From an uncultured Akkermansia sp. (GTDB lineage: Bacteria; Verrucomicrobiota; Verrucomicrobiia; Verrucomicrobiales; Akkermansiaceae), in NCBI GenBank assembly GCA_947588735.1, contig CANQAD010000014.1, forward strand, positions 1-37,479: a stretch of DNA of 37,479 nt, in the 5' to 3' direction. The notes beneath the pieces were generated by a model, which was not told where the DNA came from, made no database searches, and saw nothing but the letters and a program-made list of their open reading frames with translations. The stretch's first letter is position 1, and the number at the start of each line of letters is the position of its first letter. Both the position numbers and the translations under genes were made by a program. This document shows, one piece after another, positions 1 through 37,479 of the stretch.

Positions 1-130
1 CCCCCCTTCCGCAACTGCGTCTATTCTACCGCAGTCCCCCTCATTTTAGCGAATCAAATTAACCGTTTACGATTTGGGAAGATAGCGCGCTGGCGCGCGG
101 GGAGGCGAAGCTGGAGCGACGAGGGAGAAC

Positions 131-311
131 GGAACCGCGCGCAAGACTAATGAGAAAGCTGAGTGGGGGAGCGAAGCTGAAACACAAGGGGATTTTCGAG
201 TTACGATTTTTGATTTTCGATTTGGGAAATTTGCGCGCCGCCATTTTCGTCCGAAGAAAACGCATGGGAAATGGGTTCAATGAGCCCGGAGAATATTTTT
301 GGGACACGTGT
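131..311. repeat. Dispersed composite repeat, copy 1
   Basis: This stretch is nearly the same as 26153-26360, from GGAACCGCGCGCAAG to GGGACACGTGT. It contains a run of 7-bp units of ACGATTT type at about 198-225, followed by a GC-rich palindromic stub. Copy 2 has about 28 extra bases (a GCGCGC-TG-GCGCGC palindrome plus flank) where this copy has only GCGCGCC; a similar palindrome lies upstream here at about 84-98. ORFs through it on either strand are repeat sequence, not genes. I see no gene in 1-530. Confidence 0.8.
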
Positions 312-9252: not shown

Positions 9253-10362
9253 TTATGCCTGCGCGCCCTTCCTCAGGTTGCAATCCCGGCAGAGCATCTG
9301 ACAATTTTCCGGCGTTGTTCTGCCCCCTTTGCTCCACGGCGTGATGTGATCGGCGTGCATCTCACCAAATGGAAATTCCTTGTTGCATATCGTGCAGCGG
9401 TGTTTTTGCCGCTCGTAAGCTGCCAAGGCGTCGCGCCTGTCAAAAGTGCGGATGGATAGCTTCCTCTCATCCCCGGTAAGCAGGTACTCATAAATCCCGC
9501 TCTTACGCGTTACATCTTCATCCCCCATCAGTCGTCCCACCTGCTCTTCGAGTTTTTGCGGATCAAGATCCGTGCGCGTGCCGTGCTCATTATACATCAG
9601 CCCCCACGGCAAGCCCTTCATTTCCTTGCGCTTCTTCGGGAATATGGCCTGCACCCAATCAATCACCGAGCGAAAATAAGTCCACAGAGCAACCGCACTC
9701 GGATCATTCTGATGCTCTGCCATGTACTCTTCAATACTCTTTCCTTGCGCACTTGCCGCCCAAAGTATAGCCGTTTCCAGATAATGCTGACGAATACTCT
9801 CTCCCTTCAGGTAATCCCCCGCCATTCGAGCCGCCGGGCACCCCGTCCTAGAAAAGTAGCGTTTCGCGTCAGCCGTCCAGCTTCCGGCATACACTGCATT
9901 GCGCAGTTCCTGATCGCTTAGCTCTTCCCCGGCTATATTGATGATGCGGAACCACTCCAACTTCTCGCTCTCTGTTCCGTCACAAGTGTACACGAAAAGC
10001 TTGTAGCCCAAAATCTCCCTCTGCTTATCCCTCGGCAAGTTGTGGAAAAACAGCCCATCCACTGCAAAGCTTCCCCTCACGTACTCGCATAGTGAGAGTG
10101 TACGCTGCTGCCCATCCATCACCTCATACCCCGCCGAACCGTCCTCCTTCTTTACCCGGCACCAATAGATCACATTGAGCGGCAGTCCCTTTTTTACAGT
10201 TCGTATCACCTCATCTCTCTGCGCATCCTTGTACACAAACTCCCGCTGATAAGGCGGGCGTATGTCCAATGCTCCTCCATAGCCGCTCACTCCCTCTTCT
10301 GCATCGTTTGCGTACCCTTCGCAGACTTCCCCCACAGTGACTTTTAACTCTTCTATCTTCAT
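9253..10362 (-). CDS. DUF262 plus HNH endonuclease protein
   Basis: 369 residues from the ATG at 10362, chosen because it lies 7 nt after the methyltransferase stop; the longer frame would run into that gene. The N-terminal DUF262 (ParB/GmrS-like) domain shows RPPYQREFVY (35-44) and the signature DGQQRTLSL (83-91). The C-terminus is a zinc-bound HNH nuclease: C323/C326 and C358/C361 as zinc ligands, HADHITPWSKGG with H339, and N353. DUF262 is the N-terminal domain of GmrSD-type restriction enzymes that use nucleotides and cut modified DNA. The adjacent methyltransferase suggests restriction or defence. Whether it cuts methylated or unmethylated DNA cannot be read from the sequence. Confidence 0.82.
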   Translation of the reverse strand: MKIEELKVTVGEVCEGYANDAEEGVSGYGGALDIRPPYQREFVYKDAQRDEVIRTVKKGLPLNVIYWCRVKKEDGSAGYEVMDGQQRTLSLCEYVRGSFAVDGLFFHNLPRDKQREILGYKLFVYTCDGTESEKLEWFRIINIAGEELSDQELRNAVYAGSWTADAKRYFSRTGCPAARMAGDYLKGESIRQHYLETAILWAASAQGKSIEEYMAEHQNDPSAVALWTYFRSVIDWVQAIFPKKRKEMKGLPWGLMYNEHGTRTDLDPQKLEEQVGRLMGDEDVTRKSGIYEYLLTGDERKLSIRTFDRRDALAAYERQKHRCTICNKEFPFGEMHADHITPWSKGGRTTPENCQMLCRDCNLRKGAQA

Positions 10363-10369
10363 GGTATCG

Positions 10370-11465
10370 TTATTTTGTTCGCGTTTCAGGTTGCTTATTA
10401 CGGATGAGTATGCGGGCATAACGGGGTTTGCCCATAATCGCCACTCGCCCGCCGACAAGAAACTCCTTAGGAACAGTGTATCGATCGAGTCCGATAATTT
10501 CAAATTGCTCTGGATTGTACTTATTCATAAAAGAAATCGGCACACCCATCACCCCATCATAATCACAGGGGATATCCACCGTTTTACTGACCTCAATCGC
10601 ATCGTAATTATCGTAGTGCGGGTATTCCTCCGGAGTGTAATGGCGGAAAAGAATCATCCGCTCATGACGCTTCTTGTAATCTAGATTAGTAAACCATGTC
10701 ACATTCCTGAAATGGACCAACCCTGTGCTAGGGTCATACACACCGGGTGCAAACTCACGAGCATTTTCTTTAGGAATTAAAAAATGAGAATCTCCCCCTT
10801 TGAAACCATATCCCAGCCACATCTTGTTCTCTTTGATAAGTGGGAAAATCTCCTTGTATGTAATCGCGTTCTGGTTGCCAATGATAAGGAACTTCTTGCC
10901 GTACTCCACCAACTGCGCCACGTACTCACGAAAAAGTGAGAATGGCGGGTTGGTCACTACAATATCGGCCTCCTTGAGAAGCTCGATGCACTCCGCACTG
11001 CGGAAATCGCCATTCCCTTGCAGCCGCTCAATGGGAATCTCTCCGGACTCGATGAGAGCCCTCACATCCCGCATATCTACAGCATTATCCCCCGTCTTGT
11101 CATAAACCTTCGTGACCACAGCCTTGTACGGTGTGCGCTCAGTCTCCGGCTCCTCAAAAAGCATGAGTTGCTGCCCGGCAATCGGCGAGCCTGCATAGCA
11201 CGTGGCAATCAGTTTTTTGAGCTTCAAGCGTCCAAAATTGAGCACAAAATACTGAAAAAAATTGCTCTCGTACGGATCATCACAGTTACAGAACACCGTC
11301 TTCCCGGCAAAGTGCCCCGCGTAATGTTGCAACTCGTTGCTGATATCATTGAGCTGCGTGTAGAATTCATCTTTCTTCCCCTTCTTTGCTAAATGCAGAG
11401 TTATGTTATCAGAACTCTTGCGGGGGGGGGGTAGTAACTAGTTCATTATCAATACTTTGCGACAT
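10370..11465 (-). CDS. EcoRI-family adenine-specific DNA methyltransferase, phase-variable, OFF here
   Basis: EcoRI-type adenine N6 methyltransferase. The conserved N-terminus KKGKKDEFYTQLNDI, CNCDDPYESNFFQYF, and the catalytic NPPF in DIVVTNPPFSLF are all present. The conserved frame is open from 11437 to 10370 but contains no ATG, GTG or TTG before KKDEFYTQ. The only ATG reading toward it (11465) is separated by ten C at 11431-11422 and is one base out of frame, ending in TGA at 11411-11409 after 18 codons. Nine or twelve C would give ~364 residues starting MSQSIDNELVTTPPPRKSS. A truncated start at TTG 11332 would lack conserved residues. A good promoter precedes ATG 11465. The DUF262-HNH gene follows by 7 nt. 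Confidence 0.85.
11422..11431. repeat. Mononucleotide tract (G10 on plus, C10 in the gene)
   Basis: Ten identical bases in the first codons of the methyltransferase gene, long enough for slipped-strand mispairing. It sits between the start ATG (11465) and the conserved N-terminus. Only lengths of 9 or 12 (3n) join the two frames; 10 and 11 both give early stops. Confidence 0.9.
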
Positions 11466-11489
11466 ATTTCAAGGTAGCATCCTAAAGAC

Positions 11490-11518
11490 ATTCTACCCTA
11501 AAAAAGCTACTGAGTCAA
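11490..11518 (-). promoter_or_regulatory. Promoter of the methyltransferase-nuclease module
   Basis: TTGACT (11518-11513), 17-bp spacer, TAGAAT (11495-11490) on the minus strand. Start of transcription near 11483 leaves a leader of about 18 nt before ATG 11465. The ATG at 11491 overlaps the -10 and cannot be used. Confidence 0.65.
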
Positions 11519-11688
11519 GTTCTTTTCACCTTAGCATTTCTTGGCAAACAGCTTACCGGCGTAATTGTGTGTGGAGGGGGGGTGAAACAAAAATCATTTT
11601 TTCGGAAAAGAAATAGCCGTATTTCGGGGTGTATCCAGCCGCGTGGGAACGTCTCTCCGCACAGTACCTTCACCCGAATTCATCCGCC

Positions 11689-11772
11689 GGAATACTTCTT
11701 GCACATATCTGGATACTTATACGACAATTTAGAATACTTTTTCAATAAAATAGAATACTCCTTTTATTGTAT
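11689..11772 (+). repeat. Four direct repeats at exact 21-bp spacing (iteron-like)
   Basis: Cores AATACTT, GATACTT, AATACTT and AATACTC begin at 11691, 11712, 11733 and 11754, exactly 21 bp apart (two helical turns), in an A+T-rich stretch. Two inverted copies (GATACTT and GATACTA on the minus strand) lie at 11811-11817 and 11803-11809. Spacing on one DNA face suggests cooperative protein binding: a replication origin for the primase/ATPase, or regulatory sites for the integrase or methyltransferase. 11519-11688 and 11820-11925 hold no gene I can support. Confidence 0.7.
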
Positions 11773-11925
11773 TTCCCTTAATAATAAACAAATAATACAG
11801 CATAGTATCCAAGTATCCCGCCATGCGGTGATCTTTTTCGCGCGCGCATCCGCGCGATTCTGCCGCCTCCGGCAGGCTCAAGCACCTCACCGCCATCATC
11901 CGCCGCGGTTCGCCGCGGACCGCCG

Positions 11926-13104
11926 TCACACCTTCCTCAGTGCTTCCTCAAGCACCTCACCCACCTTTGCCCTCTGTTCCGCCGTAGCACTGAAATACCC
12001 CCGCTCCACCTCTTCAGAGCTATGCCCCACAGCCTCCCGCACCACATCCGCCGTCAGCCGCGAATCTGACCGCGCAACGGACACCACCGTATGGCGAATG
12101 CTGTGAAACGACTTGCGACTCACCCTGTGGCGGTTCCCCGTCAGCGGCTTCCCATCATCATCCGGCAAAATCCCGAACGCCCTCAGCAAAGCCGTGAACT
12201 GCGTGGACACATAGCTGGGGCTATGATTATACCTCTCAGCCATCGATGGGAACACATATTCATCCCCCGGCAGAGCCGCCTTCAGCCGCCGCTCCAGCAA
12301 AGAGCGCAGATCATCCCTCAGCAGAATCTCGCGCTCCTTCCCCGTCTTCTTTTCCCTCAGAAAAATCACCCCTTTTTCAAAATCCACCCCGCTCCACCTC
12401 ATCAGACACACATCCGAAATACGCAACCCATTGCAAAAATACGCCACCGCCACCATATCATTCCAAGGATCAGGAAAATCCGTAATCATCTGTTTAATCT
12501 CCTCCGCCGTAAACGCCTCCCGCCTCTGCGAAACTATTGAAACACCCGCCCCCTTTGCCAACTTCGCCACACTCACCCCGTCCCACGGATTCCCATAAAT
12601 CACCCTATCGCGCACCCCCTTATCAAAAGCCATCTTCAAATACACCCGGAAAATCTCCACTGTCCGCGGCGAAGCCTGCCGAAACTGCGCTAACACAAAC
12701 GCCCGGCAATCCTCCCCCGTCACCGCATCCACCCGTTCCTCCGCCCTCGCCCCCAAAAACCTGATAAAAAGCACATGCGCCCGCCTCCGGTTACTCTCCG
12801 AACTCGCCGCCGAAGTCGCAGGCACACTATCCAGCAACTCCCGCACCGACGGCACAGCTCGCCCCAACCCGCAAGCCTCACCAGCCGCCCTCACGGCATC
12901 CATAATCTTATCCAAAGGACACTCCCCCTTCGCCGCCAGCTCCATATTGTCCGCCGCCAACTGCGCCGCCCTTTCCGCCGCCCGCGCATTCATCCCAACC
13001 TCCCCCTTAATCCGAATCCCCGTTGACTTCATCACCTTCTTCCCGTCCTGCTTCCAACACGCATAAAAACAGGAACGCCCGCTTAACTTCTGCAACCATG
13101 CCAT
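11926..13104 (-). CDS. Tyrosine recombinase / integrase
   Basis: 392 residues. Catalytic residues: R228 in NGLRISDV, a lysine in the beta-hairpin REKKTGKE (K253/K255), H334 and R337 in HSIRHT, H361 in GHSS and the nucleophile Y370 in RGYF. The N-terminal region (~90-175) is a SAM-like core-binding domain. It integrates and excises the element by recombination between attP and the 3' end of tRNA-Val; its gene lies 179 bp from the right attachment core, the usual arrangement. No ribosome site is evident before ATG 13104. The distal gene order suggests it is transcribed separately from the methyltransferase. Confidence 0.92.
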   Translation of the reverse strand: MAWLQKLSGRSCFYACWKQDGKKVMKSTGIRIKGEVGMNARAAERAAQLAADNMELAAKGECPLDKIMDAVRAAGEACGLGRAVPSVRELLDSVPATSAASSESNRRRAHVLFIRFLGARAEERVDAVTGEDCRAFVLAQFRQASPRTVEIFRVYLKMAFDKGVRDRVIYGNPWDGVSVAKLAKGAGVSIVSQRREAFTAEEIKQMITDFPDPWNDMVAVAYFCNGLRISDVCLMRWSGVDFEKGVIFLREKKTGKEREILLRDDLRSLLERRLKAALPGDEYVFPSMAERYNHSPSYVSTQFTALLRAFGILPDDDGKPLTGNRHRVSRKSFHSIRHTVVSVARSDSRLTADVVREAVGHSSEEVERGYFSATAEQRAKVGEVLEEALRKV

Positions 13105-13156
13105 AATCGTAATATCTATCTATTCTTCTTTCAACTTCCGGGGCGGAGGTACACCG

Positions 13157-13189
13157 CGTACCCCCATCGTACCCCTGAAGCGTACCCCC
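13157..13189 (+). repeat. Three CGTACCCC direct repeats upstream of the integrase
   Basis: CGTACCCC occurs at 13157, 13168 and 13181 between the integrase start and attR. Similar octamers, CGCACCCC (4076) and GTCACCCC (4089), lie just inside attL. They are candidate arm-type integrase or excisionase sites. The match on the left side is imperfect. Confidence 0.5.
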
Positions 13190-13221
13190 TCTCTATCATA
13201 CCCCACCAAACCAAGACAAGC

Positions 13222-13253
13222 AAAAAGCCCGCCGTCTCTAGGACTCGCGGGCT
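13222..13253 (-). terminator. Intrinsic terminator after the tRNA operon
   Basis: On the minus strand AGCCCGC (13253-13247) pairs with GCGGGCT (13232-13226), followed by TTTT. It lies 31 bp past the 3' end of tRNA-Val. Because it is inside the element, the element has supplied the terminator now used by the tRNA transcript. Confidence 0.75.
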
Positions 13254-13282
13254 AATCAAACTCAATCAAACTATCAAATTCG

Positions 13283-13296
13283 CTACGGGGGATAGG
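13283..13296. other. Right attachment site (attR core)
   Basis: Exact copy of the 14-bp core at 4024-4037. It covers the 3' T-stem strand, 3' acceptor strand and discriminator of tRNA-Val, so insertion leaves the tRNA complete. Confidence 0.82.
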
Positions 13297-13356
13297 ACTC
13301 GAACCTACGACCTCCACCATGTCAAGGTGTTGCTCTACCAACTGAGCTACCTCCGC
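13284..13356 (-). tRNA. tRNA-Val (anticodon GAC)
   Basis: 73 nt without encoded CCA. Anticodon loop TTGACAT on an ACACC/GGTGG-type stem gives GAC, valine. T arm GTAGG-TTCGAGT-CCTAT. The acceptor strands GCGGAGG and CCCCCGT pair imperfectly: G1-U72 and an A5-C68 mismatch. It is the insertion site of the element. It lies 9 bp downstream of tRNA-Tyr on the same transcript. Confidence 0.88.
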
Positions 13357-13365
13357 TTGGAAGAA

Positions 13366-13448
13366 TGGGCAGGGATGGATTCGAACCATCGAAAGCAAAC
13401 GCTAGCAGATTTACAGTCTGCCCCCTTTGACCGCTCGGGAACCTACCC
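13366..13448 (-). tRNA. tRNA-Tyr (anticodon GTA)
   Basis: 83-nt class II tRNA with a long variable arm. Acceptor GGGTAGG/CCTGCCC, anticodon stem CAGAC-TGTAAAT-CTG giving GTA, T arm ATGG-TTCGAAT-CCAT, discriminator A. CCA is not encoded. First gene of the Tyr-Val tRNA unit. Confidence 0.93.
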
Positions 13449-18452: not shown

Positions 18453-18785
18453 TTTTGTTGAGGGTGTTTAGAGAATGTAAATGGCTTGTTTTGCTTGATT
18501 TTTGAGGGGCGGGTTATTTACTGAACGTTGTGCGAGGCACAAATGAGTCGCATAAGAAACGTTTAGTGAATGTGAATAAGGGTAGCGAAGTCAAGAATGT
18601 GATTATTTGTCGGGAGAGGTTGACGCGGGGCAGGCGGAGAGGCGGGCGTTGCTGGTGACGTGGATATGGCGCGTGAGGTGCGCAGCAAAAGCAAAGCGGA
18701 ATTTTCGAAGACGAGATGCGATGATCAAGGGAAAGCATCCGGAGTAATGCCATGCCGGGTTGACTCAGCGCCGCCCCATCGGAGC

Positions 18786-18915
18786 TTGCTTCGGAGTCGT
18801 CTCACGACTCTTGCCTCAAACTCGCCCCACGAGTTTTGCTTCGGAGTCGTCTCACGACTCCTCACCCCTGCGGGCTGGCTCATCGGTCTTACAGCCCGCT
18901 TCGCGAGCGCCCTAC
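18786..18915. repeat. Cluster of five palindromes with a 25-bp direct repeat
   Basis: A 25-bp segment is exactly repeated at 18786-18810 and 18836-18860 (50-bp period), each containing the hairpin GAGTCGT-CTC-ACGACTC. Between them lies AAACTCG-CCCCA-CGAGTTT (18818-18836). Downstream are GCGGGCTG/CAGCCCGC with a 14-nt loop (from 18870) and CGCT-TCGCG-AGCG. The gene-free stretch 18453-19196 otherwise holds only 19037-19119 and a promoter; 18453-18785 shows nothing I recognise. Confidence 0.7.
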
Positions 18916-19036
18916 CGGGGCCGTCGACCGCTTTGCTGAATCGTCCATGGCATGCTGTCTTGTCGGCTTCTTTCTTTCGTCCCTAGAAAAAGCGATCCTA
19001 ACAGGCGGTTATTGCAGCCGCTCACACTTCGCTCCC

Positions 19037-19119
19037 CGCGCGCCAGCGCGCAAGCTTCCCAAATCGTCAATCGAAAATCGTAACTCGTCAATAGCAACCG
19101 CATTTCCTAATGCGGTTGC
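19037..19119. repeat. Dispersed heptamer-hairpin repeat
   Basis: GCGCGCCAGCGCGC palindrome (from 19038), then units of ACGATTT/ACGAGTT type (read on the minus strand), then a perfect 11-bp hairpin GCAACCGCATT-TCCT-AATGCGGTTGC at 19094-19119. The same parts recur at 26374-26430 and 37405-37468. Confidence 0.75.
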
Positions 19120-19141
19120 CTGGTGTATGCCCGTTTTTGCC

Positions 19142-25927: not shown

Positions 25928-26052
25928 AACTCGGCTATTTAAGCAGCTTTTACCTCTCCTGTCAACTCCGTGACTACGGCAGCCCACACGTGTCCCAAGA
26001 AAAAGCACCCCAGACAGGTCGTTTACGGCAAATCATGCAGCATAAGCTGTTG

Positions 26053-26430
26053 GTTATTTACGAATTACGATTGACGATTGACGATTTACAATTTGAAAAA
26101 GCTAGCGAGCCGGAGGCTCGGGAAATGCGGAGCAGTAGCGACGGGGGAGGGCGGAACCGCGCGCAAGACTAATGAGAAAGCTGAGTGGAGGAGCGAGGTT
26201 GAAACACAAGGGGATTTTCGAGTTACGATTTTTGATTTTCGATTTGGGAAATTTGCGCGCTGGCGCGCGGGAAGGCGAAGCGCTCTGCCATTTTCGTCCG
26301 AACAAAACGCATGGGAAATGGGTTGAATGAGCCCGGAGAATATTTTATTGGGACACGTGTGACGGCAGCCAAGGCAAACGCGTGGAAAATGCGTTTGCTC
26401 ATTTACGATTGACGACTTTCGATTTACGAT
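26053..26430. repeat. Dispersed composite repeat, copy 2, with heptamer arrays
   Basis: Tandem 7-bp units ACGAATT, ACGATTG, ACGATTG, ACGATTT, ACAATTT at about 26058-26093. The block 26153-26360 matches 131-311. A hairpin GCAAACGCGT/ATGCGTTTGC (26374-26398) is followed by more heptamers to about 26430. The gene-free stretch 26009-26497 is mostly this repeat. Confidence 0.8.
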
Positions 26431-26497
26431 ATTGATAACGTGCGCATTGTGCATGTTTATTCTAAATGACGGCCGTGCTCTGACTCGGGAACACGAC

Positions 26498-37347: not shown

Positions 37348-37404
37348 GCGGCTATCCTAGCCGTCGCCGCATAATTTGTCAAGCAGCTTCGCAGACCGAA
37401 CAGG

Positions 37405-37468
37405 GCAAACGCATTAGGAAATGCGGTTGCTATTGACGATTGACGAGTTACGAATTACGATTTATTGA
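37405..37468. repeat. Dispersed heptamer-hairpin repeat
   Basis: Hairpin GCAAACGCATT-AGGA-AATGCGGTTGC (37405-37430, one mismatch) followed by 7-bp units ACGATTG, ACGAGTT, ACGAATT, ACGATTT. Same parts, reversed in order and strand, as at 19037-19119. It continues toward the window end. Confidence 0.75.
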
Positions 37469-37479
37469 TCATGTGCGCG

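Follow-up and report, generated by a model that had tools for sequence, protein, structure and literature searches.

Insertion sequences of the ISAs1 family have CAGGG ends and generate target duplications of 8-10 bp, and tandem heptamer arrays occur in cyanobacteria. PMC4133298 defines a MITE as a short element that lacks a transposase gene and whose inverted ends resemble the ends of an autonomous one; PMC11578231 describes a comparable intergenic case. MITEs derived from insertion sequences or transposons, such as the Tn3-derived TIMEs and MITEPye1 of the IS1182 family, are short and present in many copies, with inverted ends, a target duplication and no transposase gene, and the family A that we describe resembles them in all of these respects. 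It differs from them in its likely ISAs1 partner, its 10-bp duplication, a one-sided hairpin that stems from an extra inverted copy of the end, its heptamer arrays and its differing bodies. In the accessible text of the open-licence literature, including PMC3733652, PMC3281130, PMC4133298, PMC7371123 and PMC11578231, we found neither an ISAs1 MITE nor an Akkermansia MITE.

The repeats considered here constitute an ISAs1-type MITE family (A) beside a second, IS4-type one (B), a kind of system that is already known. From the sequence evidence we consider it very probable that family A is a non-autonomous transposon with the hairpin as its left end, that it would be moved in trans by an ISAs1-family DDE transposase and that the heptamers and a GCGCGC module are also present in the IS4-type MITE B. 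This assignment accounts for the repeat pieces listed below and names a likely transposase family. Family A provides a well bounded case, with ends, duplications, an empty site and a partner, for studying the origin of bacterial MITEs from ISAs1. The hairpin end and the heptamers common to two unrelated MITE families are unusual features and offer testable points.

The window, by which we mean the whole stretch of DNA that was analysed (37,479 nucleotides), is the complete contig C14 of the genome G000, an assembly of 2.2 Mb in 110 contigs that is 89% complete. An earlier note on this DNA had read its intergenic repeats as a single family; they are instead assigned to an ISAs1-type MITE family, A, and an IS4-type one, B, and the heptamer arrays are common to both. 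The pieces are as follows.

1..311, plus strand: composite of family B type, truncated at the contig start, with the GCGCGC module and heptamers followed by a B right end (TTGGGACACGTGT)
18669..19060, no strand assigned: remainder of the mosaic block joined to the A end at 19061..19122 (blastn against loci of the same genome, for example L280, L281, L282, L198 and L226)
19061..19122, minus strand: family A left end, terminus CAGG-CAACCGCATT with one G missing, hairpin 19094-19119, heptamers 19061-19093
25976..25984, plus strand: left copy of the 9-bp target-site duplication ACGGCAGCC of family B
25985..26361, plus strand: complete family B MITE of 377 bp, ends CACACGTGTCCCAA, containing two heptamer arrays and the GCGCGC palindrome
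26362..26370, plus strand: right copy of the 9-bp target-site duplication ACGGCAGCC, its last base being the first base of the adjoining A end
26370..26450, plus strand: truncated family A left end with hairpin 26374-26398, heptamers 26401-26430 and the start of the A body; the limit at 26450 is approximate, from comparison by eye with the A consensus
37401..37479, plus strand: family A element that runs off the contig, with left terminus CAGGGCAAACGCATT, a hairpin at 37405-37430 and heptamers at 37432-37462, the remainder lying past the contig end

The window therefore holds one complete copy of B (25985-26361), and its A copies are only partial or mosaic. The 7-bp tandem units reported previously were located as heptamer arrays at six positions (191-223, 19061-19093, 26056-26094, 26213-26245, 26401-26430 and 37432-37462), and the GCGCGC palindrome in the three places claimed for it (85-98, 19038-19051 and 26255-26268). 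Three hairpins had been described as sharing a sequence, at 19094-19119 (minus strand), 26374-26398 and 37405-37430. All are present and the sequence is indeed shared, but they are not equivalent: the hairpin at 37405 belongs to an element cut by the contig end, that at 26374 to a truncated left end and that at 19094 to the A-type end of a mosaic spanning about 18669-19122. The supposed degraded hairpin near 260-285 (AAAACGCATGGGAAATGGG) is no decayed hairpin; it is the inner right end of family B, and it recurs at the equal position in the four other B copies compared and in the complete copy of the window. The copies had been placed between genes, and those of the window do lie outside the open reading frames with Pfam matches among the part of the window's frames that was scanned.

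The locus at 19037-19119 is a mosaic of an A-type end, heptamers, a partial GCGCGC module and a module D, with relatives of each elsewhere in the genome. Positions 19061-19120 align by blastn to the left ends of many family A copies among the loci of the same genome, and within 18669..19060 module D, which is itself repeated, occupies about 18669-18994 and a partial GCGCGC module C about 19017-19060. Searches at this locus for an end pair bounded by a duplication found none. Module D also contains a perfect 25-bp repeat, TTGCTTCGGAGTCGTCTCACGACTC, in two copies at 18786-18860. An Rfam search of the window at the gathering threshold returned three tRNA matches only, with no structured-RNA family match for the repeats, and on this ground a known structured RNA was rejected as a reading of them.

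Reading stretches of the genome to which the window belongs shows family A to be an element of about 240 bp that has the hairpin on one side. Read inwards, each end is CAGGGCAAMCGCATT, and the far end consists of one inverted copy of the hairpin's outer arm. The order is an inverted end CAGGGCAAMCGCATT, a loop of 4 bases and a partial copy of the end in inverted orientation (these together form the hairpin), often four heptamers, a body of about 165 bp and the inverted end AATGCGKTTGCCCTG. The body has no open reading frame of transposase length. In 16 complete copies of our own choosing (13 from this genome and three from other Akkermansia records), which align at a mean column identity of 92%, the longest closed frame is 28-55 amino acids.

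The earlier suggestion of a genome-wide intergenic repeat, perhaps mobilised, is borne out by many more copies, by exact target-site duplications and by an empty orthologous site. In the 2.2-Mb genome the motif GCAAMCGCATT gave 110+105 matches against 2+2 for a reversed control, and the heptamer pair ACGANTKACGANTK gave 216+214 against 0+0, overlapping matches within one array being counted apart. The duplications at family A ends are exact and 10 bp long. Among 80 loci of this genome together with the window, 146 end pairs lie 30-700 bp apart, and the 10-bp flanks are identical in 23 of these and differ by one mismatch in six, although the pairs have ends in common and L020 is counted three times among the 29. 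Shuffled pairing of the ends yielded 0.39 perfect and 0.14 one-mismatch 10-bp duplications per shuffle, and at lengths of 4-8 and 11-14 bp the 146 pairs showed no perfect duplication. All but three of the 29 duplication-bounded pairs (26/29) are 239-243 bp long. The other 117 pairs are without a clean duplication, and many of them presumably combine ends that belong to different or decayed copies. When 97 loci, a set that overlaps this one, were taken together with the window, a flanking repeat of 8-11 bp was found at 34 end pairs and was 10 bp long at 31. No strong target preference was seen by eye in 33 duplications.

The empty site concerns the insertion at C7:45468-45709 (L019), which is absent from genome G084. 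A single copy of the 10-bp target is present there, and 126 of 128 bases are identical over the joined flanks. Genomes G197 and G200 likewise lack the element at that site, but they differ over the target itself.

Hairpin-only elements were also sought. None of 18 candidates has a clean duplication, and at least 13 are normal left ends that a permissive pattern picked up; with a different script a single case was obtained, 34 bp long and with a one-mismatch duplication (L033). These results do not establish a minimal mobile hairpin. Six junctions between A units pass through a single arm and lack the outer CCTG (L009, L024, L029, L035, L039 and L048); they arose perhaps by recombination between two direct copies of AATGCGKTTGC. 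Other members of the genus have elements of 276-295 bp with family A ends (L131-L134 and L143). The 10-bp duplication is perfect in L131, L133 and L134, has one mismatch in L143 and is not clean in L132, and in L131 heptamer-like units face one another near both ends.

When the insertion sites were restored, a frame open over both flanks was found in 2/25 with flanks of 300 bp, 3/29 with 250 bp, 6/33 with 200 bp and 12/33 with 150 bp. The corresponding values for random positions of the window, a background of one contig, are 1332/3000, 1595/3000, 1932/3000 and 2335/3000. The low share of open frames agrees with the removal of insertions in genes, and copies inside genes may have been lost by selection. 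The exact hairpin end was found in 75 stretches of named genomes, all of them uncultured Akkermansia sp. (isolates 'Lapin-...'). Among 76 genomes of the genus, 41 have the family A end (the reversed control gave zero throughout) and the number of exact end matches per genome ranges from 0 to 123, from which it follows that copy number changes fast at the genus scale.

Full-size elements with family A ends are present in the genus. L128, of ISAs1 type, is 1312 bp long with a 10-bp target-site duplication GTGACTGTAT, and L256 is 1315 bp long with the 10-bp duplication AACCAAGGGG. These are the two with a duplication among five full-size elements for which both flanks are available; L257, L258 and L260 have both ends and no duplication, and L129 was left out of this comparison since it begins at a contig start. 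The NCBIfam ISAs1 equivalog NF033564 matches the L128 protein with 322 bits and that of L099 with 385 bits (cut-off 70), and both proteins also match PF13808 and PF01609. The L256 protein is 49% identical to that of L128, and this identity is the one basis for assigning L256 to ISAs1. L099, which comes from another genus, has the end CAGGGCAAACGCAT and no duplication. The outer 22 bp of the MITE and the left end of L256 are 95% identical, as are the outer 20 bp and its right end; the remaining matches are weak, and no convincing similarity between the bodies of the MITE and the insertion sequence was found beyond the ends. Family A thus has in common with the ISAs1 family the CAGGG... ends, the 10-bp duplication (L100, L112, L116, L128 and L256) and the outer 20-22 bp of L256, whereas it has no transposase gene, is about 240 rather than about 1300 bp long and carries a hairpin that is absent from L256, L128, L099 and L284.

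The distribution of the transposase was followed in two ways. Of 145 genomes of the Akkermansiaceae family, 34 contain a match to the ISAs1-associated domain PF13808, which was found in none of the 20 members of the genus listed, the genome of the window included. With the script used, 30 PF13808 loci from the wider family showed CAGGG-type ends with a 9-10-bp duplication in three cases, all from other genera (L100, L112 and L116), and not in the other 27. The absence of PF13808 from the genome of the window was at first an argument against ISAs1; a protein search later revealed fragments at contig edges. That search, with the L128 protein, matched 27 of 73 genomes of the genus, some only by short fragments, and gave no transposase match in end-rich relatives such as G193, G002 and G192. 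In the genome of the window an ISAs1 coding fragment and an end stand at the start of C50 and the other end type at the start of C10. The assembly of this genome (89% complete) contains no full ISAs1 copy, the protein search having found just a contig-start fragment. The route through PF01609 to a partner for family A led to an IS4-type element instead.

We infer that family A would be moved in trans by the DDE transposase of ISAs1-family insertion sequences that have the same ends, each insertion producing a 10-bp target duplication. The inference is drawn from the common ends, the duplications, the exact empty site, the insertion sequences of the genus and the end fragments in the window's own genome. 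Family A has the features of an ISAs1-derived MITE: it is small and multicopy without a transposase gene, it has the ends of an autonomous relative and a duplication of equal length, and its likely partner encodes an ISAs1-family transposase.

Family B is a second MITE, which bears the GCGCGC palindrome and has the ends CACACGTGTCCCAA with a 9-bp duplication. In a count made without a shuffled control, the 9-bp repeat lies at the same offset in eight of 23 B end pairs (six from this genome, the window included, and two from elsewhere); an 11- or 13-bp repeat was found in three, a 5-bp repeat in one and none in 11. Contig edges of the same genome bear an insertion sequence with ends CACACCCGTCCCAAG, a complete 1462-bp relative of which (L248, in G197) has a 9-bp duplication and encodes an IS4-family transposase (NF033592, 252 bits). 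The IS4-family element, with ends CACAyCCGTCCCAAGAAAAT, and family B have in common the 9-bp duplication and ends that are similar, not identical, differing by a few bases; in contrast to the insertion sequence, family B bears heptamers and the GCGCGC module. These are the properties of an IS4-derived MITE.

The two families are found in close contact. The B element of the window abuts an A end at 26370, and the B duplications at L232 and L176 contain A-end sequence. Mosaics would probably form by recombination in the stretches common to A and B, namely the heptamers and the GCGCGC module. This module also occurs in tandem, with a period of about 145 bp and heptamers between the units, at C17:31700-33100 (L198), C42:17300-18170 (L279) and C1:1-900 (L280), two of these arrays being at a contig end.

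The left ends vary in what adjoins the hairpin. The number of heptamers ranges from 1 to 14 and is four in 85 of 187 left ends, after which body 1 follows in 78, a C-like module in 20 and two other modules in 18, leaving 71 unclassified. The notion of exchangeable bodies rests on this partial classification, in which 71 of 187 ends are 'other'. A tentative and rather unlikely extension of our assignment is that the one-sided hairpin and the adjoining heptamers form a conserved functional module, such that the MITE end would work differently from the insertion-sequence end and the heptamers would act as joints at which ISAs1- and IS4-type bodies are swapped to give mobile mosaics.

The hairpin arms bear on the question of whether the host makes use of the element. 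The variable stem pair is C-G in 58, A-T in 23, T-A in one and T-G in three of 97 hairpins, a set that excludes 71 matching the collection (anchor) pattern and loci L144-L173; thus 85 pair and 12 do not. Among 29 complete copies, 18 have the C form at the left end and the A form at the far right end, in a count that includes the pattern matches and is biased to C-G. Set beside the 85 of 97 paired arms, this indicates a closer match between the two arms of a hairpin than between the arms and the far end, as would be expected equally from selection acting on the hairpin, from gene conversion or from descent within subfamilies. A host function of the hairpin end or the heptamers, for example in transcription termination, mRNA stability or protein binding, could explain their retention and would relegate the mobile origin to history. 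We regard this as unlikely. The mostly complementary arms of the non-anchor hairpins favour it, and the whole element is predicted to fold as RNA better than shuffled sequences (z -3.1, with one of 200 shuffles as good) and to contain one terminator-like site. However, the inverted ends would by themselves lead to strong folding, and the agreement between arms could be due to subfamily inheritance or gene conversion, 30 of the 97 hairpins being identical. The three terminator-like sites predicted in a stretch of 801 bp are no clear excess over shuffles (mean 1.3, s.d. 1.1), and the T run is broken in three related copies.

It is very doubtful that it is primarily the heptamer arrays that move or expand, as a tandem heptamer repeat like those of cyanobacteria, with the A and B ends as passengers. 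The arrays are plentiful: the heptamer pair has 430 matches in the genome of the window (overlaps counted apart), and contig C1 opens with an array of about 12 units. Their unit number varies, 14 bp of L077 for instance being missing from L066. Nevertheless, the duplications stand exactly at the A and B ends and not at the heptamers, and the two arrays examined away from A ends (L281 and L282), a small share of the total, were assigned by eye to copies of B type or to decayed ones.

That the repeat is a palindrome of the REP/BIME type, whether mobilised by a RAYT (Y1 tyrosine transposase) or retained for a function in the nucleoid or in mRNA, is scarcely credible. The palindrome is short, intergenic and of high copy number as in those systems, and PMC3733652 reports GTAG-type REPs in this phylum (O. 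terrae). Against this reading, the hairpin terminates a well-defined element of 240 bp that has inverted ends and 10-bp duplications, the ten tetranucleotides listed on its outer side, which cover 137 of 143 hairpins and are mostly CAGG (110/143), include neither a GTAG nor a CGTC tag, and the REP-associated transposase proposed earlier gave no Y1_Tnp (PF01797) match in the incomplete assembly of the window's genome, whereas six of 14 control genomes matched, five of them over the cut-off.

Two further observations accompany the assignment of the repeats to ISAs1- and IS4-type MITEs. Firstly, repeats of the family A and B kind stand at several contig ends, those of the window included, and they probably help to break these assemblies. 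Secondly, at 9253-13448 the window carries a tyrosine integrase frame (PF00589) beside two tRNA genes and near an EcoRI-type adenine methylase (PF13651) and a GmrSD_N/HNH frame, in what looks like a restriction-modification island at a tRNA.
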